This document shows, one piece after another, positions 1 through 61,013 of a DNA stretch of 64,000 nt (positions within the stretch are counted from its first letter, which is position 1; each line of letters opens with the position of its first letter). The position numbers and the translations under genes are program-made. A model generated the notes under the pieces. It made no database searches. It worked only from the letters and a program-made list of their open reading frames with translations, and was not told the DNA's origin. This stretch comes from Geitlerinema sp. PCC 7407 (GTDB taxonomy: Bacteria; Cyanobacteriota; Cyanobacteriia; PCC-7407): the NCBI RefSeq assembly GCF_000317045.1, contig NC_019703.1, positions 1,724,501 to 1,788,500 of the forward strand, written 5' to 3'.

Positions 1-1133
1 GTAAAGCGTCAATTTCAGACGGAAAAAAAATTAGACAGGCAATTTGTGCTTTTGCTAACGATTTACCAAATCACAAGAAGCCTGGAGTCCTTTTTGTGGG
101 AGTTAACGATGATGGGACCTGTGCTAACCTGCCTATTACAGACGAGCTTCTTCTAAGCCTCTCCAATATACGCTCTGAAGGAAAGATTCTGCCGTTCCCA
201 GTACTACAAGTTAATAAACGTACTTTAGGTAACTGTGAGTTAGCCGTTGTTATTGTAGAACCGTCAGATGCTCCTCCAGTTAGATTCGATGGACGGACAT
301 ATATTCGAGTTGGACCCCGACGCGCAACAGCAACACCTGAAGAAGAACGTCGCCTTAATGAAAAAAGACGCGCAAGAGACTTACCTTTTGATTTGCGCCC
401 TTTTATTTCCGCTTCTATTGATGATTTAAATCTGGATATTTTTCAACGCGAATATTTGACATCAGCATTAGCACCAGAAGTGCTAGCTGAAAATCAGCGG
501 TCTTTAACACAGAAGCTAATCTCATTACGATTTGCGACTCCAGAACCGGATTCGCGTCCAACTAGCTTGGGTATTTTAGTGGCTGGAAAAGAACCTAGGC
601 AGTTTATTCCAGGATTTTACATTCAATTTGTCCGCTTTGACGGAACTGACCTAACCGATCCTATTCGAGACCAAAAAGATATTAGTGGTTCTCTTACCGA
701 TTTACTACGTTATGTAGATGAAGTTCTACAAGCCAATATTTCGACAGCTTCTGATATCACAGCGCAACCTGTAGAAATAAAGCAGCCTGATTACCCTATC
801 GTCGCGTTACAGCAGCTTGTACGAAATGCTGTCATGCACCGTTCATATGAAGAAACCAATGCTCCGGTGCGGGTTTATTGGTTTAATGATCGAATTGAAA
901 TTCAAAGTCCAGGTGGATTGTTTGGACAAGTGAATCGTCAAAACTTTGGTCAAGGTGTTACCGATTATCGAAATCCTCATTTGGCGGAAGCAATGAAGAA
1001 CCTAGGATATGTTCAGCGCTTTGGTATAGGAATTCCAACTGCTCAAAAGGAATTGAAGAAAAATGGGAACCCCCCAGCAGAATTTGCTATTGAGGATTCA
1101 TATATGTCAGTTGTGATTAGGAGGCAACCATGA
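1..1133 (+). CDS. AlbA_2 (Schlafen-like) / HATPase protein, 5' truncated by window edge
   Basis: The frame is open to the left edge. Codons before the GTG at 96 continue the same domain (ISDGKKIRQAICAFAND, then GVLFVGVNDDGT), so that GTG is internal and the true start lies outside the window. The N-terminal part reads as an AlbA_2 (Schlafen-type) domain, ending near the GRTYIRVGP stretch. The C-terminal part has the RecG-like HATPase_c_4 signature: QLVRNAVMHRSY, then NDRIEIQSPGG and YVQRFGIGIP. Such proteins are often labelled ATP-dependent DNA helicase or transcriptional regulator, but their biochemistry is poorly defined. The stop overlaps the start of the ParA gene by 4 nt (ATGA), so the two are translationally coupled. 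Base composition is clearly AT-richer than genes after 2.9 kb and HIP1 is absent, which suggests transfer. A regulatory or defence role is possible but not shown. Confidence 0.85.
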   Translation, partial: KASISDGKKIRQAICAFANDLPNHKKPGVLFVGVNDDGTCANLPITDELLLSLSNIRSEGKILPFPVLQVNKRTLGNCELAVVIVEPSDAPPVRFDGRTYIRVGPRRATATPEEERRLNEKRRARDLPFDLRPFISASIDDLNLDIFQREYLTSALAPEVLAENQRSLTQKLISLRFATPEPDSRPTSLGILVAGKEPRQFIPGFYIQFVRFDGTDLTDPIRDQKDISGSLTDLLRYVDEVLQANISTASDITAQPVEIKQPDYPIVALQQLVRNAVMHRSYEETNAPVRVYWFNDRIEIQSPGGLFGQVNRQNFGQGVTDYRNPHLAEAMKNLGYVQRFGIGIPTAQKELKKNGNPPAEFAIEDSYMSVVIRRQP

Positions 1134-2164
1134 CCGCACCAATTATTGCCTTCTTCAATAATAAGGGAGGAGTTGGAAAAACATCCCTTGTCTATCATTT
1201 AGCTTGGATGTACTTTGATTTAGGGCTAAAAGTGATAGCAGCAGATTTAGATCCTCAAGCTAATTTAACAGCGGCTTTTCTGGATGAAGATCGATTGGAA
1301 GAGATTTGGGAAGGGAGCAATGCCGGTAGCTTTAATACCATCTTTCGATGCGTCAAACCCTTATTAAGTGGTATTGGTGATATTGCAACTCCGAATCTAG
1401 AAAAAATAGAAGATGGATTAAGCCTTTTGATTGGTGATTTACAGCTATCTGGATTTGAAGATGAATTGTCCTCCCAATGGTCTGATTGTCTTGATCGCAA
1501 AGAACGAGCATTCAGAGTTATCTCGGCTTTCTGGCGAATATTGAGTCAAGCAGCATCTATTAATAGTGCTGATATTGTTTTAGTTGATTTAGGACCCAAC
1601 TTAGGAGCAATTAACCGAGCAGCTCTTATTGCCTCAGACTACGTTGTAGTTCCTCTCTCACCAGATCTTTTCTCATTGCAGGGACTCAAGAACCTCGGTC
1701 CAACCGTAAGACGCTGGAGAGAAGAATGGAAGGAGCGTATCCCAAAAAACCCAGTCTCAGATCTAGCTTTACCAAAAGGGAAAATGCAACCTGTTGGCTA
1801 TGTTATTCTCCAGCATGGTGTTCGATTTGACCGTCCTGTAAAGGCGTTTCAAAGATGGATTGAACGAATTCCACACATTTATAGTGCTGAGGTTCTTCAA
1901 GAACCAAATGAAACCACTTCAACGCAATCAATCGATCCAAATCGTTTAGCATTACTTAAACACTATCAAAGCTTGATGCCAATGGCTCAAGAGTCTCATA
2001 AGCCCATTTTCCAGCTTAAACCAGCTGATGGAGCGATCGGTGCTCACATTGCTGCTGTAAAGCTAGTGTACTGGGATTTCAAGGATCTAGCTCAAAGGAT
2101 TGCTGATCGGACGGAACTATTTTTGCCCAACTCCCAACTCACTCTCGAACCAGAATTGAAGTAG
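1130..2164 (+). CDS. ParA/MinD-family ATPase
   Basis: A 344-residue deviant Walker A ATPase. NNKGGVGKTS (residues 10-19) has the signature lysine before the P-loop, DLDPQANLT near residue 40 is the A' motif, and VLVDLGPNLGAINRAAL is the switch II/Walker B region. ParA proteins dimerise on ATP, bind DNA or membrane non-specifically and position cargo such as plasmids or chromosome regions. No ParB or parS-like site is visible nearby. The partner is instead the AlbA_2/HATPase protein that overlaps its start by 4 nt. The C-terminal half (about residues 200-344) is longer than in minimal ParA proteins and I do not recognise it. Composition is AT-rich like its neighbour. It could serve a mobile element, a partition-like function or a defence module. 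Confidence 0.88.
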   Translation: MTAPIIAFFNNKGGVGKTSLVYHLAWMYFDLGLKVIAADLDPQANLTAAFLDEDRLEEIWEGSNAGSFNTIFRCVKPLLSGIGDIATPNLEKIEDGLSLLIGDLQLSGFEDELSSQWSDCLDRKERAFRVISAFWRILSQAASINSADIVLVDLGPNLGAINRAALIASDYVVVPLSPDLFSLQGLKNLGPTVRRWREEWKERIPKNPVSDLALPKGKMQPVGYVILQHGVRFDRPVKAFQRWIERIPHIYSAEVLQEPNETTSTQSIDPNRLALLKHYQSLMPMAQESHKPIFQLKPADGAIGAHIAAVKLVYWDFKDLAQRIADRTELFLPNSQLTLEPELK

Positions 2165-52494: not shown

Positions 52495-52908
52495 TTAGCC
52501 CTGGGTCTGGCCTGAGTCAGGGCGATAGGCCAGACTAAAATACTCTCGGTAAGCACACACGCGATCGCCCTGCAAATCAAAGGAAACTGCAACTTGATTG
52601 TTGTAAGCTTGGCCCTTTAAATTTCCTTGGGACGCGAGCTCAAAAACTACCGTTGAACCGCTGTAGGTAATGCGCTGTATTTCTGTTTCTAGACCCCCTT
52701 CAAACAGGTCCGAAACGTATTGAAAAAACTCGCGAGCGCGATCTTTGCCCACATTCACGCCCTGAAAGGCTCCGGCAGGAAAAGTGAAGGTGAAGTCGTC
52801 CGTCAGAATTTCGAGGAAAGGCTCCCAATCGCCGGTGCGCAGTCCCTTTGCAAACCGCTCGAAGGCTCGCTTTCCATCTTCTAATACGACCTCCGGGATT
52901 ACCGTCAT
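52495..52908 (-). CDS. SnoaL/NTF2-like domain protein
   Basis: A 137-residue protein of the NTF2-like fold. FERFAKGLRTGDWEPFLEILTDDFTFTFPAGAFQG is represented by the pattern of the family: helix, then W-x-x-F-L-x-x-L-x-D-D-F. FFQYVSDLF, VVFELASQGNLKG and DRVCAYREYFSL are the following blocks. Such small domains act as ketosteroid-isomerase-like enzymes or ligand-binding units. The frame extends to 52938; the methionine at 52908 (MTVIPEVVLEDGK) is preferred. It lies upstream of no partner. Confidence 0.8.
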   Translation of the reverse strand: MTVIPEVVLEDGKRAFERFAKGLRTGDWEPFLEILTDDFTFTFPAGAFQGVNVGKDRAREFFQYVSDLFEGGLETEIQRITYSGSTVVFELASQGNLKGQAYNNQVAVSFDLQGDRVCAYREYFSLAYRPDSGQTQG

Positions 52909-53025
52909 TCGTTTGGCCTCGGTGCAGCTTCGTGACAAGACTCTAGGGTACTGTATGCCATCTGCAAAAATTTCGCCTCCCGGCTAAATTATTTTGCGCC
53001 TCCATCGGGTGAGCGGAAGCGGAAA

Positions 53026-54222
53026 TCAGTCCTTGGCGCGGCTGGTGACGATACTTTGCTTGGCGGCCCACTGGCCGATGTCCTGGCGACTAAGGGCAGC
53101 GGCCATGAGGTCGGGGAACTGGTCCGGCGTGCAGGCAAAGGAAGGGACGCCGAGGGCGGCGAATTTGGCGGCGTGGTTGTGGTCAAAGTAGGGCGCGCCG
53201 TCGTCATTGAGGGCGAGGAGGGTGATGAACTGGACCCCCGAAGCGGCGATCGCCCCCACGCGCTTGAGCATTTCCTGGGGGTTGCCGCCTTCGTAGAGGT
53301 CGCTGATCAGCACCAGCACCGTTTCCTGGGGCTTGCGAATTAGGCCCTGGCAGTACCCCAGCGCCCGGTTGATGTCGGTGCCGCCGCCCAGCTGCGTCCC
53401 AAAGAGGACCTCGATGGGGTCTTGGAGCATCTCGGTGAGATCCACGATGGAGGTGTCAAAGACAACTAGCTGGGTTTTGACGGCGGGCAGGGACGCCAGG
53501 ACGGCGGCGAAAATGCTGGCGTAGACAACGGAGGTGGCCATGGAGCCGCTTTGGTCCACGCACAAAATAATGTCTCGCAGGGCCGATCGCTTGCGGCCAA
53601 AGCCGATGCGGGTTTCTGGAATGATGGTGCGGTACTCGGGCTGGTAGTGTCGCAGGTTGGCCCGGATGGTGCGCTGCCAGTCGATTTCGTTGTGGCGGGG
53701 GCGGCGGTTGCGCAGGGCTCGGTTGAGGCTGCCCTTGACGGCCTGCTCCATGGGACTGGAGAGCTTGCGCAGGAGCTCATCGACCACCTGCTGTACCACG
53801 GCCCGAGCGGTTTCTTTGGTTTCGGTGGGCATGATGCTGCCCAGGGCGATCAGGTTGGCCACCAGATGGACGTCGGGCTGGACGGCCTGGAGCATTTCTG
53901 GCTCTAGGAGCATCTGCTGGAGGTTGAGCCGCTCGAGGGCGTCCTGCTGCATGACCCGGACGACGGAGGTGGGGAAGTAGGTGCGGATGTCGCCGAGCCA
54001 GCGGGCAACATTGGGAGCGGAGCCGCCGAGGCCGCCCTGGCGATCGCTCCCCAGGCTGCGGCGATCGTAGAGGGCCTCCAGGGCCAGATCCATGGCGCGA
54101 TCGCCCTCACTGAGGCGATCGCCTGAGCCCTCGCCCTCGCCGGGACCGCCGCTGCACAGACTGCCTGCGGCATCGCCGCCCAGGATCAAGCGCCAGCGCC
54201 GGAGTCGTTCGTTTTCGTCCAT
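53026..54222 (-). CDS. VWA-domain (CoxE-like) protein
   Basis: A 398-residue protein, last gene of a five-gene block. The N-terminus has a Gly/Ser-rich stretch (about 15-36). Residues 95-205 are helical. The VWA domain starts near 215 with ILCVDQSGSMATS, giving the MIDAS motif DQSGS (223-227), then GGGTDINRAL with the MIDAS Thr, then LVLISDLYEGG with the last Asp. VWA proteins partner MoxR ATPases in CbbQ-CbbO, NorQ-NorD and RavA-ViaA, where they recruit the ATPase to a client. The upstream MoxR gene lies two genes before it, which supports that reading. Confidence 0.88.
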   Translation of the reverse strand: MDENERLRRWRLILGGDAAGSLCSGGPGEGEGSGDRLSEGDRAMDLALEALYDRRSLGSDRQGGLGGSAPNVARWLGDIRTYFPTSVVRVMQQDALERLNLQQMLLEPEMLQAVQPDVHLVANLIALGSIMPTETKETARAVVQQVVDELLRKLSSPMEQAVKGSLNRALRNRRPRHNEIDWQRTIRANLRHYQPEYRTIIPETRIGFGRKRSALRDIILCVDQSGSMATSVVYASIFAAVLASLPAVKTQLVVFDTSIVDLTEMLQDPIEVLFGTQLGGGTDINRALGYCQGLIRKPQETVLVLISDLYEGGNPQEMLKRVGAIAASGVQFITLLALNDDGAPYFDHNHAAKFAALGVPSFACTPDQFPDLMAAALSRQDIGQWAAKQSIVTSRAKD

Positions 54223-54259
54223 GAAATCTTTCCAAAAGAGGGCAGGTCGTCAACCAAAG

Positions 54260-56614
54260 CTAGGGAAACCGGAGGCCGAGAAGCTGGGCCACCAGGGGCA
54301 GCACCGCATCGGCGCGATCGCGATCGAAGGTCGCCTCGTCAAAGCGGGCCGTGGTCTGGGGGCCGCGGGCCAAACCGCCCTGCTGGATGCGATCGGCCAT
54401 TTGGCGGCGCTCGCCGATGGGGAAGGTCGTAAAGGTGCGGCGCAGCAGGGGCAGCAAGGTCACAAAGGTCTCAGCGCCCAGGGAGATCACCCAGCGATCG
54501 AGCACCTGCCAGATCGCCTCGTCGTGGAGCAGCATTAGGCCGCTCCCCTGCAAGAATCCCTCCACCCAGGCCGCTGCGTGGACCGGCTCGACGGCCACCG
54601 ACAGCGCCAGCCCCATGCGGCGGGCGGTGTCCTCGGGCGAGAGCAGGCCATCGTCGAGGAGCAGGCGACAGCAGCGGCCCGCCAGCAGCCCATGAAGGGT
54701 TTCCTGGTCCGCCATCTGCTGGAGGAGCGATCGCCACGTGCTGAGGTGCTCTTCGTTTTGCAGCAGCTTGAGGGTGCTGTGGGTGGTGATCAGATGCTTG
54801 AACATCTCCAGGGCCGCCGCGTCGTTGAGGGAGGCGCAGGCCAGGGGCAAGCCGATGCAAATCCGCACCACCAGCCCATCGACGACGTGGGACACGATGC
54901 GGGTGTCGGTTTGGCGCACATCGCTGTAGCGCAGCAGATTGGCCAGGGGCGGCAGTGCCCCCATCAGGTGGACCACGTCGCTGGCGACGGCGGCCTCCTC
55001 CTGGAGGCGCTCCATCAGGTGGGTGGTGGCCTCGGGCAGGGCCGCCAGCAGGACCTGGTCGAGGAGCTCAGTCAGGCTGGGCAGGTTCGGCGCGGTGTCG
55101 GCGCAGTGGGACGCGTACTGGCTGGCCGCTTCGTAGAGGTTGGTGCCCCACTGACTGGCCTCGATGAAGGCGATCGCCAACTCCGGTTTCCAGTCCAGCC
55201 GCCAGGCTTCCTTGAAGGTGCCTTTGCTGCTGGTGCGCTGGCGATCGCCCCAGGGAATATTCAGCAGCCGCAGCCGGTGGAGCAAATAGGACCGCTCAAG
55301 GCCCGTGGGCTGGCGCAAATCCAGCTCTAGGGGCTTCTTGGGTTCGGTGCGATCGGGCAGCTTCAGGCGGCGCTGGAGTCGCCGAAAGTCTTGCAAAATC
55401 GGCACCATCGGGGTTTCCGGCGGCACGTGCCCCAGGCGATCGCTGATGATCAGGCCCTCGTGGATCAGGCGCATCGGCATGGCATCGCCAAAGCACAGCA
55501 CCGTCTGGGCCGCTTCGTTGAGCTCGTCGAGGCTGGGCAGCGGGCGATCGCGCAGGGCCGCCAGGGCTTCGGCGAGGCGCACCGCCTCGATCACGCTGGC
55601 CGACGAAGCATCCAGATCTTCGCGTCGCAGTCGCCGCGCCACCTGGGTCAGCCAGCGCGTGGTGATCTGGTCGCGGGCCGTCCACAGGTGGTGGTACCAG
55701 CCGGGGGCGTGAATGCCGGCGCCGTAGCCGCTGCCCAGGGCCAGCCGGCCATAGGTCCAGGGCACCCAGGTCGCCTCGACCTTGATTTTGGGCAGGCCCT
55801 TGAGCAGGGCGCTGTCCTGTTTGGCGGGGGGCAGGGGGCTGGCCAGGGCGGGCACGTGCCACGCCCCGCAAACGATGGCGATCCGCTGGAAGCCCTCTTT
55901 TTGGGCCTGACGCAGGCTCTGGCGCATAAACGCTTCCCGCTGGGCTTCTCGCAGCTCCTGGGGATCTGCCGTGGTGGCCGTATCCACCGTGGGCAAAGGG
56001 TGATCGCGCTCTAGGGTTTGGCGCAGCTCGGTAATGGCTTCCTGAATTGCCAGAAAAACATCGGTGCTGTCCTGGCGCTGCTCCACCAGCGCTTCCCACC
56101 ACTGCTCGCTGTCGGTGTAGCCCGCCGCTTGGGCCAGCCAAAAGAGCGGATCTTGGTGCAGGGCAGGGGATTCCTCACCGGTTTCGGCGGCGGTAGCCTT
56201 TGGGTCATCGGGCGTGTCTGGCGATGGCTCGCTGGCCTCGGCGGCGGGCTCGGTCGGGGGCTCGCCCTCGGGGGGCGCTTTGGCGGCCCGCAGGGCGAGC
56301 TGGTGGGTTTGGGGCAAGTCGATCATCCGCACGGGAATCTGGTGCTTCAGGCCGTACTGGATCGCCTGCCACTCCGGCGAAAAGACCGCAAAAGGATAGT
56401 AGGCCGCTGCTTGGGGAGACTCCGGCGCGTAGACCAGCAGCGCCACCGGGGGACGCATACCGGCGATCGCTGCCAGCGGCAAGACCTCATTGGCTTCTGG
56501 GGGGCCTTCGATGAGGATCACGTCCGGCGCCATCGCCGTGAGCGATCGCACCAAGCTGCGGGCCGACCCGGGGCCGTGGTGCCGAATGCCAAAAATCTGT
56601 ACAGACTCAGCCAT
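54260..56614 (-). CDS. DUF5682 protein with TraB/ChaN-like motifs
   Basis: A 784-residue protein, second last gene of the five-gene block. The N-terminal domain has IFGIRHHGPGSARS (7-20), VILIEGPPEANE (32-43) and IAIVCGAWHVPAL (245-257). Paired HH, EGPP and GAWH motifs recall the TraB/ChaN/EreA group, some of whose members are metal-dependent esterases or proteases. A low-complexity Pro/Glu/Ala insertion lies at about 113-150. The C-terminal two thirds are helical and unknown to me. DUF5682 has no described activity that I am aware of. It starts 32 bases after the MoxR stop on the same strand. Confidence 0.85.
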   Translation of the reverse strand: MAESVQIFGIRHHGPGSARSLVRSLTAMAPDVILIEGPPEANEVLPLAAIAGMRPPVALLVYAPESPQAAAYYPFAVFSPEWQAIQYGLKHQIPVRMIDLPQTHQLALRAAKAPPEGEPPTEPAAEASEPSPDTPDDPKATAAETGEESPALHQDPLFWLAQAAGYTDSEQWWEALVEQRQDSTDVFLAIQEAITELRQTLERDHPLPTVDTATTADPQELREAQREAFMRQSLRQAQKEGFQRIAIVCGAWHVPALASPLPPAKQDSALLKGLPKIKVEATWVPWTYGRLALGSGYGAGIHAPGWYHHLWTARDQITTRWLTQVARRLRREDLDASSASVIEAVRLAEALAALRDRPLPSLDELNEAAQTVLCFGDAMPMRLIHEGLIISDRLGHVPPETPMVPILQDFRRLQRRLKLPDRTEPKKPLELDLRQPTGLERSYLLHRLRLLNIPWGDRQRTSSKGTFKEAWRLDWKPELAIAFIEASQWGTNLYEAASQYASHCADTAPNLPSLTELLDQVLLAALPEATTHLMERLQEEAAVASDVVHLMGALPPLANLLRYSDVRQTDTRIVSHVVDGLVVRICIGLPLACASLNDAAALEMFKHLITTHSTLKLLQNEEHLSTWRSLLQQMADQETLHGLLAGRCCRLLLDDGLLSPEDTARRMGLALSVAVEPVHAAAWVEGFLQGSGLMLLHDEAIWQVLDRWVISLGAETFVTLLPLLRRTFTTFPIGERRQMADRIQQGGLARGPQTTARFDEATFDRDRADAVLPLVAQLLGLRFP

Positions 56615-56646
56615 GGGCGTGGGCTCCTTGGGGCAGGGAAAGGGCG

Positions 56647-57768
56647 CTAGGACAACTCACGGCAGGCCCGATAAATGTCTTTCCAGCCGTCGCGCTCCTT
56701 CACTACGGCCTCCAGGTACTCCTTCCAGACCACCGTATCCTGGACGGGGTCTTTCACCACGGCACCCAGGATGCCAGCGGCCAAGTCCTCTGCTCCCAGT
56801 CGGCCATCCCCGAAGTGCGCCGCCAGCGCCAGACCGCTGCTGACCACCGAAATCGCTTCGGCGGTGCTCAGGGTTCCCGAGGGCGACTTCAGCTTGGTTT
56901 TGCCGTCTTCGGAGACGCCGTTGCGCAGCTCCCGAAAGATCGTCACCACCCGCCGAATTTCCTCCAGGGCCGGGGCCTCGGCGGGCAGCTCTAGGGCTCG
57001 GCCCAGGCTTTCGACCCGCCGCTGCACGATGTCTACCTCTTCGTCGCTGGTGCTTGGGACCGGCAAGATCACGGTGTTGAAGCGCCGCTTGAGGGCGCTG
57101 GAGAGCTCGTTGACCCCCTTGTCTCGGTTGTTGGCGGTGGCGATCAGGTTAAAGCCTTTGCGGGCCTGCACTTCTTGGCCCAGCTCGGCGATCGGCAGGG
57201 TTTTCTCGGAGAGCACGGTGATCAGCGTGTCCTGGACGTCCGCTGGAATTCGGGTCAGCTCCTCCACGCGGGCGATCTTGCCTGCCTCCATGGCGTTCAT
57301 CAGGGGGCTGGGCACCAGGGCGGCCATGGAGGGGCCTTCGGCCAGCAGTCGGGCGTAGTTCCAGCCGTAGCGGATGGCCTCTTCGCTGGTGCCTGCGGTG
57401 CCCTGGATCAGCAGGGTGGAGTCGCCGGTGATGGCGGCGGCTAGGTGCTCGGAGACCCAGGACTTGGCGGTGCCGGGGACGCCGTAGAGCAGCAGGGCGC
57501 GATCGGTGGTGAGGGTGGCGATCGCCACTTCGATGATTCGGGTGCTGCCGATGTACTTGGGCGAGACCACGAAGCCGTTGTCCAGGGTGCCGCCCAGCAA
57601 ATAGGTGGACACGGCCCAGGGGGAGAGCTTCCAGTTGGGCGGGCGGTGGCGGGTATCCACGGCGGCGATCGCCTCCAGCTCCTCAGCAAACTGGGTCTCG
57701 GCGTGCTGGCGCAAAACAGCGGTGGCGGGCTCAGGGGCGGGTTTGGCTTTGGCTTTCGAGGTTGGCAT
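56647..57768 (-). CDS. MoxR-family AAA+ ATPase
   Basis: A 373-residue AAA+ protein of the MoxR branch. Walker A is GVPGTAKS (96-103). Walker B reads RVEELTRIP (167-175), with E169-E170 where most MoxR proteins have Asp-Glu. Sensor 1 Asn is in LIATANNRD (208-216). ALKRRFNTVILP is the arginine-finger and C-terminal strand. The frame is open to 57873 into the DUF5691 gene; the ATG at 57768 is chosen, so the two genes no longer overlap by more than 46 bases on paper. MoxR ATPases act as chaperones or metal inserters with VWA proteins, and one lies downstream. Confidence 0.9.
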   Translation of the reverse strand: MPTSKAKAKPAPEPATAVLRQHAETQFAEELEAIAAVDTRHRPPNWKLSPWAVSTYLLGGTLDNGFVVSPKYIGSTRIIEVAIATLTTDRALLLYGVPGTAKSWVSEHLAAAITGDSTLLIQGTAGTSEEAIRYGWNYARLLAEGPSMAALVPSPLMNAMEAGKIARVEELTRIPADVQDTLITVLSEKTLPIAELGQEVQARKGFNLIATANNRDKGVNELSSALKRRFNTVILPVPSTSDEEVDIVQRRVESLGRALELPAEAPALEEIRRVVTIFRELRNGVSEDGKTKLKSPSGTLSTAEAISVVSSGLALAAHFGDGRLGAEDLAAGILGAVVKDPVQDTVVWKEYLEAVVKERDGWKDIYRACRELS

Positions 57769-57814
57769 GGTGTTTAGAGGGTAAGTGGAGGCAAGGGAGC
57801 AGGCAGCGGGGTCT

Positions 57815-59368
57815 CTAGGGGCGATCGCCAAAGGCGTGGTGCATCTCTTGGCGAAACTGGAGCATGGCCACAAAGTTTTGCATTGGCTCGATCCAGTAAC
57901 CGTCAGAGCGCCCCTCCGCCGCTGTCACCAAGGTCAGGGCATCGGCGATCACCTCAGCGTCGGGCGCCATGAAGCGGGCGAATTTTGGCAGGGTCATCCG
58001 CATTTCCCAGTGAGTGTGCTCGACGTGCTGGATGTAGTGGGCCATGCGGGCGATGATTTGGCGGCTAAAGCCAGCACTCCAGTCGCGGCGGTACTGGGCC
58101 GCCCACAGGAAGTGGGCGTTGTCGGCGTCGGGACTGGCCGGGGTGCTCTCAAACCGCTGCATTAGCCAAGCTTCTCGGCGATCGCTCGGCAGCACTTCGG
58201 CCAGTCCGGCGGTTTGGGTGGCATCGAGGCGATCGCCTGCCCCCGTGAGCAGGGCTTCGGCCCAGGCGGCGCTGCCCTGGCGCTCCGCCGCCAAGGCTAA
58301 CCCCGTCAAAAGCGGGCCTTGCCAGTCGTGGTCGAGCAGGGCGCTGACGATGGCCACCGGCGGCGCGCTCTGGCTCCAGAAGGTCAGGGGAAGGCTGCCC
58401 ACCAGCTGCTGGAGCCACCAGGCCTTCTCGCCCTTGCCGCTGGGGGGCTTGGGGTCGAGGCCCTCGCGCTGGAGGTCGGGGCCGCAGGCGGTGGGCGGAG
58501 TGACCGCGATCTGGGGGCGATCGCCCCCGAGCGTCAGGCGGAGGTGCGATCGCCCCCGCTCCACCATGCGGTGACAGAAGGCCGACCCCGGCAGCCGCAC
58601 CAGCAGGTCTGCCGCGACCCGTCGCACGTCTTTGCTGCGATCGTCTAGGGCTGCTTCCAGGAAGCCCTCATCCTCGGGAGACAGGCCCACCTGGAGGGTT
58701 TCGAGCAGCTTGGCGCGATCGCGAGCCATTTCAGCGCCCCAGTGAGCGGCCAGGTGCTCGCGCGCCAGATTGGGAGCCTGGGACCGCCAGAGCCGCAGCA
58801 GCATCTGCCGGGTGGTGCGATTGCTCGCGGCCCAGACCTGAACTAGATCTGGCGGCAATGTGTTCGCCTCCAGGCCGCTCCAGTCTGCGGCTGCGTACTC
58901 CCACTGGGGATTTTGGGCGGCTAGCCATCGCCCCCGCTTGCCAACCACGTGCAGCAGCTCCTCTCGCAGCGGGCTGTTGTTGCGGCCCTGCTCCAGCAGG
59001 TCTGGCAGCGTGTTCTCGGGAGCGCGCCAGCCGTGCTGGACCATGAGCTGCACCATTTCCGGCAGCAGATCGCTGTACGCGCCGCTGAGCACCAGCTCCA
59101 GGTGACGCACCGTAGGGCCTTGGCAGGGCGGCCACACTTCGGGCTCACTGGGGATCGGCAGGGCGGCTTGGGGGTTGAGGGAGGGGCGCTGACCGGCCTG
59201 GCGATGCAGGGCGATCGCCCCGGCTGCGCTCAGCACGGTGTGCTCGGGCTGGACCGGATCGAGCTGGGCGATCAGACCCAGCAGGGGGTCCTCCGAGGTG
59301 GGTCGCTCGACGCCCTGGCGCTCTGTGCCCAACAGAGCAATGCCCACGAGGGTTTCCCAAAATTTCAC
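57815..59368 (-). CDS. DUF5691 HEAT-like protein
   Basis: A 517-residue helical protein, second gene of the five-gene block. LEAALDDRSKDVRRVAADLL (about 232-251) is a clear HEAT-like repeat and QLMVQHGWRAPENTLPDLLEQ and LLLRLWRSQAPNLAREH suggest further repeats. KFWETLVGIALLGTERQ is the conserved N-terminus of the family. HEAT solenoids bind proteins, so it may be the scaffold of the complex. No catalytic motif is visible. It begins 40 bases after the SWIM gene's stop and ends 46 bases before the MoxR start, all on the minus strand. Confidence 0.8.
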   Translation of the reverse strand: MKFWETLVGIALLGTERQGVERPTSEDPLLGLIAQLDPVQPEHTVLSAAGAIALHRQAGQRPSLNPQAALPIPSEPEVWPPCQGPTVRHLELVLSGAYSDLLPEMVQLMVQHGWRAPENTLPDLLEQGRNNSPLREELLHVVGKRGRWLAAQNPQWEYAAADWSGLEANTLPPDLVQVWAASNRTTRQMLLRLWRSQAPNLAREHLAAHWGAEMARDRAKLLETLQVGLSPEDEGFLEAALDDRSKDVRRVAADLLVRLPGSAFCHRMVERGRSHLRLTLGGDRPQIAVTPPTACGPDLQREGLDPKPPSGKGEKAWWLQQLVGSLPLTFWSQSAPPVAIVSALLDHDWQGPLLTGLALAAERQGSAAWAEALLTGAGDRLDATQTAGLAEVLPSDRREAWLMQRFESTPASPDADNAHFLWAAQYRRDWSAGFSRQIIARMAHYIQHVEHTHWEMRMTLPKFARFMAPDAEVIADALTLVTAAEGRSDGYWIEPMQNFVAMLQFRQEMHHAFGDRP

Positions 59369-59408
59369 CGAGTGCTCCTTCTGCGGAAGTGCTGCATGGG
59401 TTTGTGCC

Positions 59409-60749
59409 CTAACATTGCCAAAACTGTCCGTGGGCCCAGGTGCTCAGGGGCATCAAGACCGACCCGTTCCACTCGCCAAAAACGGCGACGGGATGGCCGC
59501 CGCTAAAGGCCAACAGGTGCCACGGACGGATGAAGCGGGGGCTGAGCTGCGCCACGGTGCCTCCGGCATCCCGCAGCCACCAGGTGCCGTCGTCCTGGAA
59601 GGGAATCACCTGCTCCAGGCGGAGGGGAAACTGCTCAAGCCAGGGGTTGCGGGCGATCGCCTGACCGTAGTGGGCGATCGCATCGGCAATGGACGTGTGG
59701 CCCGCCATGGCCGTCAGGGCTTGCAATTCGCCCTGGCGGGCCTTGATCACGCCGCGCAGGGGGTAGTTGCTGGGATAAAACACCACCTCCGCCTCGATCT
59801 GAGAACCCGGCACCAGACTGGTGTCCAGGGGAGAGTTGCCGTGGGCAAAGCTCAAAACTAGCACCGGGCGATCGCTGGTTTGGCCCCAGAGCCACACCCG
59901 CTGCACCTTCATTTGCCGCTCCTCTTCCTCAACCTGCTTGCCCAGCACCTGCCATACGTCCTGACAGCTCTCGGCTCCCGAGTCTGGCTCAGCGGCGATC
60001 GCCAGCAGCTCCTCCTGGTTCTGGGTCCAGCCCACCAGCGTCCGCAGGTCGGCCTGCAGCGGCGCTGGGTGCGCCTCAAGGCGCTGATACCCCACCACCA
60101 GCAAATACAGCTGGCCCAGCTCTGCCAGCAGCCGCTCGGTCCAGCCCGTCCCCGAGTGGGCGATTCCGGCCAGTTCTTTGAGCCGCCGCGCCAGGCCCGG
60201 GGCCTGGGCATCCACCAGCCGCGCCGCTGGCCCGTCCCAAAAGGCGTAGGGCTGGCTCTGGACGCTGCCCAGGCCCTGACGAATCAGGTCATGCATCCAC
60301 AGCGTCAGGTCCTCGAGGCCAGCCCGAATCTTGGCTTCCCGCTTTTCAACCCGTTTCGCCTGGGCAGCAGGGTCGACGGTGGCGGCTTTCTGCTGCTTTT
60401 CGGCTTTTTTGACCGCTTGCTGCGATCGCGCCTGGATCCACTCCGCCACCCAGGGCGGCGGGTCGGTCTCCGCAAAGGCAGAGGCCTGACTGGCTAACAA
60501 TAAAAACAGCCCAAGTGCGTGTTTACACGGAAACTTGCGGCTGGGGCAGCTACAGCGGAAGGCTGGCTCTTGACAGTCGATCTGGGTGCGGTAGGGGTCT
60601 TTGCCGCTGCCCTTGCACTCGCCCCAGATGATATCCTCCGCCCTGCCCAAGCCGCTCCACTTCTGCAAACTGGCAAGTCCCTTGCCGTTTTTGGTCGAGC
60701 TTGCGTCGGGCGAAAGGGCCAAAATCTGTTCTGCGGTCCAGCTCACCAT
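59409..60749 (-). CDS. SWIM zinc-finger protein
   Basis: A 446-residue protein, first gene of the five-gene block. C66, C68, C75 and H77 (RCSCPSRKFPCKHALGL) form the CxCxnCxH SWIM motif, which binds zinc and mediates DNA or protein contact. A charged coiled-coil stretch follows (about 105-140), then helical sequence. The C-terminal 150 residues (RVWLWGQTSDRPVLVLSF onward) are beta-rich and unrecognised. SWIM proteins include transposases, helicases and Rad51 partners, but none of those catalytic domains is present. It is 40 bases upstream of DUF5691 and diverges from the LCP gene. Confidence 0.9.
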   Translation of the reverse strand: MVSWTAEQILALSPDASSTKNGKGLASLQKWSGLGRAEDIIWGECKGSGKDPYRTQIDCQEPAFRCSCPSRKFPCKHALGLFLLLASQASAFAETDPPPWVAEWIQARSQQAVKKAEKQQKAATVDPAAQAKRVEKREAKIRAGLEDLTLWMHDLIRQGLGSVQSQPYAFWDGPAARLVDAQAPGLARRLKELAGIAHSGTGWTERLLAELGQLYLLVVGYQRLEAHPAPLQADLRTLVGWTQNQEELLAIAAEPDSGAESCQDVWQVLGKQVEEEERQMKVQRVWLWGQTSDRPVLVLSFAHGNSPLDTSLVPGSQIEAEVVFYPSNYPLRGVIKARQGELQALTAMAGHTSIADAIAHYGQAIARNPWLEQFPLRLEQVIPFQDDGTWWLRDAGGTVAQLSPRFIRPWHLLAFSGGHPVAVFGEWNGSVLMPLSTWAHGQFWQC

Positions 60750-60997: not shown

Positions 60998-61013
60998 GTA
61001 TACGAAAGTATAC
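60998..61013. promoter_or_regulatory. GTATAC-GAAA-GTATAC operator candidate
   Basis: Two copies of the self-complementary hexamer GTATAC separated by GAAA. Placed just after a perfect TATAAT box, it is well suited to bind a repressor. No regulator gene is adjacent. Confidence 0.45.

Follow-up and report, generated by a model that had tools for sequence, protein, structure and literature searches.

The five-gene block

From our analysis of a 64,000-nucleotide stretch of Geitlerinema sp. PCC 7407 DNA (hereafter the window), five genes standing in one row on the minus strand at positions 53026-60749, which encode SWIM, DUF5691, MoxR, DUF5682 and VWA proteins, belong to one linked and widely conserved system related to yehLMPQ of E. 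coli. We rate it about an even chance that the block encodes a single YehL-type ATP-driven remodelling machine with a role in chromosomal housekeeping or stress maintenance and not in phage defence. The genes, in the order of transcription, are as follows.

59409-60749, minus strand: SWIM-OB protein of 446 aa, with a SWIM domain (1-116), a helical middle and predicted tandem OB-like folds (247-442)
57815-59368, minus strand: DUF5691 protein of 517 aa, with HEAT repeats around 180-270
56647-57768, minus strand: MoxR AAA+ ATPase, by its sequence of the YehL subfamily, 373 aa from the ATG at 57768
54260-56614, minus strand: DUF5682 protein of 784 aa, with a likely TIKI/TraB/PrgY-like N-terminal domain (about 1-335) and a HEAT-like solenoid (about 490-750)
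53026-54222, minus strand: CoxE-type VWA protein of 398 aa, a relative of YehP, with an intact MIDAS

In Pfam, the SWIM protein matched PF04434 (24.8 bits against a cut-off of 19.6), the DUF5691 protein PF18944 (E 3e-141), the MoxR protein AAA_5 (E 4e-37), the DUF5682 protein PF18934 (E 1e-276) and the VWA protein VWA_CoxE PF05762 (E 2e-50). The intergenic gaps are 40 bases (SWIM-DUF5691), 46 (DUF5691-MoxR), 32 (MoxR-DUF5682) and 37 (DUF5682-VWA), which agrees with the original prediction of five minus-strand genes separated by about 30-50 bases; the 46-base gap assumes that MoxR starts at ATG 57768, as the longest ORF (from TTG 57873) would overlap DUF5691. Promoter and terminator scans of the block yielded no more than shuffled sequence did, and the operon status is therefore inferred from the gaps and from conservation. 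A GTATAC-GAAA-GTATAC repeat (window 60998-61013), spotted by eye, lies between the divergent SWIM and LytR-CpsA-Psr genes and could be an operator. At the other end, a SnoaL-like gene (PF12680; window 52495-52938) lies on the same strand 87 bases past the VWA gene, and it is not among the recurrent neighbours elsewhere. The first part of the window (1-2164) has a G+C content of about 0.42 against 0.60 and may be acquired DNA; by eye, it appears to encode a fragment of an AlbA/helicase-like protein and an ATPase of ParA/Soj type.

Gene order and co-occurrence across bacteria

We scanned 84,980 species genomes with the DUF5682 alignment and obtained at least 588 confirmed relatives, of which the best 80, with up to 10 kb of flank on each side, formed the locus sample; being nearest to the cyanobacterial query, these loci lean towards the SWIM-DUF5691-MoxR-DUF5682-VWA layout. 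This order, on one strand, was found in 59 of the 66 loci with complete flanks among these best 80 of at least 588 relatives, and the median gaps in the loci that keep it are 5-24 bases. The order extends over about ten phyla, including Cyanobacteria, Chloroflexi, Planctomycetes, Bacteroidetes, Proteobacteria, Actinobacteria, Verrucomicrobia and Acidobacteria, and SWIM and DUF5691 are fused into a single protein in two Planctomycetes (L029 and L046). With the exception of DUF4132, none of the flanking genes keeps a constant position next to the block across the best 80 of the at least 588 relatives.

DUF5682 and DUF5691 exceeded the cut-off in the identical 7 of 146 cyanobacterial genomes (hypergeometric p 4e-12, with phylogeny ignored). 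In a second sample of 59 relatives, DUF5682 was present in 11 and DUF5691 in nine, all of them inside the 11; DUF5682 occurs without DUF5691 in G169, where its match lies 382 bases from a contig end, and in G190, which carries the E. coli layout. The block is patchy in cyanobacteria (5-19% of genomes) and can be dispersed without loss of its members. All five genes are kept in genome G002 at 0.39, 0.46, 1.64, 2.57 and 4.30 Mb, and they are likewise all present, though scattered or on separate contigs, in family f2 (G002, G116 and G064), of whose 11 high-quality genomes 10 contain DUF5682. In G193, MoxR-DUF5682-VWA stands as one module and SWIM-DUF5691 as another, with about 0.3 Mb between them. 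The retention of all five genes after dispersal shows a functional linkage that does not need an operon, and, taken together with gene order and co-occurrence, it rules out that the genes are chance neighbours. The original prediction of one linked set with a MoxR ATPase and a VWA partner is thus borne out, and the rare co-occurrence that it had named as counter-evidence is not what the genomes display.

A few loci carry additional genes. In Allochromatium warmingii (L062:7829-9843), MoxR and DUF5682 are separated by a cytosine-5 DNA methylase and a protein with no assigned family, a GmrSD-type restriction protein follows immediately past VWA in an Agitococcus MAG (L067:13630-15531), and an SMI1/KNR4 (SUKH) protein lies between DUF5682 and VWA in cyanobacterium G058 (L011:10878-11480).

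E. coli yehLMPQ and the DUF4132 layout

In E. coli K-12, yehL, yehM, yehP and yehQ stand in a row and correspond to MoxR, DUF5682, VWA and SWIM, a kinship which the original prediction missed. The window proteins match YehL with 41% identity over 355 aa (E 2e-73), YehM with 29% (E 1e-40) and YehP with 36% (E 3e-77); YehQ shares the SWIM finger with the window protein, with no significant BLAST match between the two. The MoxR-DUF5682-VWA order is the same in both, and each has a SWIM gene in addition, which follows VWA in E. coli whereas it heads the block in the window; ahead of MoxR, E. coli has DUF4132 (yehI) where the window block has DUF5691. In existing classifications of MoxR ATPases, which distinguish seven and later nine subfamilies (PMC3893208, PMC11432383), YehL already serves as the type member of one; that subfamily is uncharacterised, and the present block extends it. 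In the literature on yehLMPQ, we found gene lists and passing mentions only, and DUF5682 and DUF5691 are named in no paper of the literature searched. Because most of its genes are labelled as domains of unknown function, a complete machine with a definite set of parts has been overlooked.

The E. coli layout runs yehI-yehK-yehL-M-P-Q, and DUF4132-MoxR-DUF5682-VWA-SWIM is also the layout in Iodobacter and Nonomuraea. Agrobacterium vitis has the order MoxR-DUF5682-DUF4132-VWA-SWIM, and cyanobacterium G190 has the E. coli-type layout in two pieces, DUF4132-MoxR and DUF5682-VWA-SWIM. Five Bacteroidetes loci of the DUF5691 layout carry a DUF4132-family protein after VWA, and HEAT repeats were detected in both of the two that were scanned. 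From this neighbourhood, DUF4132 looks like an alternative HEAT partner to DUF5691. As a phylogenetic partner within cyanobacteria it was rejected, being present in five of 59 genomes, only two of which have DUF5682; because of this poor co-occurrence, the link rests on adjacency elsewhere and on the DUF4132-MoxR pair of G190.

Across six sequences, dN/dS was 0.035 for yehL, 0.11 for yehM and 0.07 for yehP (yehQ was left out because of indels), so these three genes are under strong purifying selection. With a relative in 95% of complete E. coli genomes, the function of the block is testable in K-12 by simple knock-outs.

Distribution: maintenance versus defence

MoxR-VWA cores are known from proposed ternary conflict systems (with VMAP, iSTAND, FtsH and beta-propeller components; PMC7159879), and the original prediction had drawn a link to them. 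In line with such a reading, in which the block would serve phage defence or another biological conflict, restriction-type genes lie within or next to the block at L062 and L067 and neighbour it on an Iodobacter plasmid, and its presence in cyanobacteria is patchy. The wider distribution is of another kind. At 80% coverage or more, yehLMPQ was found in 5162 of 5426 complete E. coli genomes, in one place per genome and almost always on the chromosome. Among 72,556 plasmid records, DUF5682 turned up in 31, several of which are as large as chromosomes, and among 50,697 phage records in one, an unverified contig. Phage defence or conflict is disfavoured by this near-core presence in a unicellular species, together with the scarcity on plasmids and the near-absence from phages, and by the retention of the scattered genes in family f2. 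PADLOC gave no convincing match to the block (the best, at E 0.0026, was local and covered 29 residues), the bpMoxR model scored 23.3 bits on the window MoxR against a cut-off of 27, and SWIM and DUF5682 are not mentioned in PMC7159879. The distribution suggests a maintenance function more than defence; we consider a defence role very unlikely, and the link to conflict systems is not supported.

A proposed remodelling machine and its MoxR-VWA core

By its sequence, the window MoxR is a YehL-subfamily AAA+ ATPase whose nucleotide-binding motifs are intact. Walker A, Sensor-1 N213 and the paired arginines R228/R229 of the arginine finger are invariant or nearly so across the 40 aligned sequences, and in all 40, E. 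coli YehL included, the acid pair of Walker B is E169-E170 and not D-E. The GvpN, MadB and bpMoxR models all remained below their cut-offs on this protein (the NCBIfam GvpN model reached 22.8 against 266.8). In the VWA protein, the MIDAS had been predicted to be intact, and indeed all 49 relatives have D223xS225xS227 and D308, and 48 of them keep T282; the ViaA equivalog model scored 13.3 bits on it against a cut-off of 500.

In NorQ-NorD, RavA-ViaA and CbbQ-CbbO alike, a MoxR AAA+ ATPase works together with a VWA partner that bears a MIDAS. The VWA protein of NorQ-NorD sits as a plug in the MoxR ring and contacts the client through its MIDAS (PMC9976466), and from this analogy we derive the plug and the MIDAS-client contact of the proposed machine. 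A MoxR hexamer would be plugged by the VWA protein, whose MIDAS would bind an acidic site on the target. The SWIM-OB and HEAT proteins would recruit and orient this target, which would probably be nucleic-acid-bound; MoxR would remodel it at the expense of ATP, and the N-terminal domain of DUF5682, a putative hydrolase, would then cleave or modify it.

Conceivably, the block could instead be a maturation chaperone in which MoxR and VWA remodel a complex or load it with a cofactor and the other three proteins are client or carriers. The characterised MoxR-VWA pairs work in this way (PMC3893208, PMC9976466), and DUF5682, which nearly always adjoins MoxR and VWA, could be the client. Nevertheless, the window block is not a member of these systems (the NCBIfam models are far below cut-off); it has three extra conserved subunits and no client enzyme beside it. 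Unlike in nor and cbb operons, no metabolic enzyme recurs at the best 80 loci of at least 588, and DUF5682 has an invariant polar cluster in a hydrolase-like motif; both count against this reading. This reading is one that we regard as unlikely, though it deserves somewhat more weight than any other alternative to the proposed machine.

The SWIM-OB and DUF5691 proteins

The ligands of the SWIM finger (C66xC68...C75xH77) are invariant in 48 of 48 relatives. In the structure model of the protein (pLDDT 95.4), residues 1-116 resemble ZSWIM8 with a Z of 9.9 over 109 residues, the next match being at 6.3, and residues 247-442 resemble RPA70, HIN-200, PriB, SSB and RecO with Z of 5-6. Although such values can reflect common arrangements, these singly weak matches agree in kind, and the C-terminal part is predicted to consist of tandem OB-like folds. 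The fold of the SWIM domain is thus common to ZSWIM8 and the window protein, which differs in that OB-like folds take the place of the remainder of ZSWIM8 and in that no cullin or Argonaute partner is in view. In two cyanobacterial genera (G002 and G116), whose five genes are scattered, the finger is gone and the OB-like part is kept, leaving proteins of about 320 aa (L130:8248-9204 and L131:8008-8961), so the finger is not essential there.

For DUF5691, a HEAT-like fold had been predicted, and HEAT repeats are supported by sequence for part of the protein: HEAT_2 matched 18 of the 49 relatives, and an alphaRep chain, which is a designed protein of HEAT type, gave a match at E 2e-4.

The SWIM finger and the tandem OB-like folds make the predicted role of a nucleic-acid or protein sensor plausible. 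In a further alternative to the proposed machine, the SWIM-OB and HEAT proteins would bind damaged or single-stranded nucleic acid, or the protein coat on it, and MoxR and VWA would strip or remodel what is bound. The likeness of the tandem OB-like folds to RPA70, PriB, SSB and HIN domains points this way, as does the closeness of the SWIM domain to ZSWIM8, which was solved in complex with AGO2 and a microRNA. The WGR protein yehF (PF05406) lies near yehLMPQ. DUF4132 proteins take the place of DUF5691 in the E. coli layout, and one such protein, DRA0166 of D. radiodurans, is part of the DdrO DNA-damage regulon, under DdrO/IrrE control, and increases on treatment with mitomycin C (PMC8533742). 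This regulation, in another species and in a protein that may or may not belong to such a set, joins the OB-like folds as a hint at nucleic acid or DNA damage. OB folds, however, bind proteins too, the finger can be lost, and in the best 80 of at least 588 relatives the block has no nuclease, helicase or polymerase as a regular companion. We hold this alternative to be rather improbable.

The DUF5682 protein as a candidate hydrolase

The DUF5682 model (pLDDT 89.7) has an alpha/beta N-terminal domain up to about residue 335 and a helical solenoid from about 490, for which the structure matches (Z 7-9.7) are only of a common kind. Invariant or nearly invariant in the N-terminal domain are R11 H12 H13 G14, E36-G-P, S79-P-E81 and D99, and also E178, R226-E227 and C249-G-A-W-H253. 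Residues 9-37 form a gapless 29-residue block with PrgY-type TraB proteins, in which G, H, SA, PD and E are in register, and both families have R-x-x-x-M...VV-(C)-G-A-x-H-x-P later in the chain. In a position-weight motif test, five PrgY-type proteins scored 12.6-17.8, above all of the approximately 2070 unrelated ORFs, and the sole ORFs above them were two DUF5682-like ones; the five proteins are closely related and the block was picked after the likeness had been noticed. GumN-type TraB proteins do not score in this test. In other searches, the hhalign comparison with TraB was weak (probability of about 20% or less on the motif; E about 1e-3 for a single comparison), there was no Pfam TraB match on the protein and no significant match to PDB sequences, and the whole-model fold search, whose list was filled by the solenoid, returned helical repeats only and no TraB-type row, a result that speaks neither for nor against the kinship. 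We consider it likely, on these motifs, that the N-terminal domain is akin to TIKI/TraB/PrgY, in keeping with the candidate hydrolase of the original prediction. TIKI proteins belong to the metalloproteases, and the family has been proposed to share one protease fold (Bazan 2013, as cited in PMC12329661). DUF5682 differs from TIKI/TraB/PrgY proteins in its fused HEAT-like solenoid and its tie to MoxR and VWA.

The TIKI/TraB/PrgY-like motif of DUF5682, the ZSWIM8-like finger with its predicted tandem OB-like folds and the HEAT repeats of DUF5691 are new. Within the proposed remodelling machine, the MoxR/VWA motor may feed nucleic-acid-bound targets, recognised by the SWIM-OB and HEAT proteins, to a TIKI/TraB-type DUF5682, which would make the block a bacterial analogue of machinery for regulated protein destruction; this extension is speculative, and we would sooner doubt it than expect it. 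Should DUF5682 prove to be a hydrolase of TIKI/TraB type with an AAA+ motor behind it, MoxR machines would gain an effector of a new kind, to our knowledge the first AAA+-driven hydrolase of TIKI type and one that is near-core in E. coli. A 612-aa protein (L010:1057-2892) carries the DUF5682 motifs PD...E and RREAHM...VCGMTHW with a different C-terminal part, and may be a distant relative that bridges the DUF5682 and TraB proteins.
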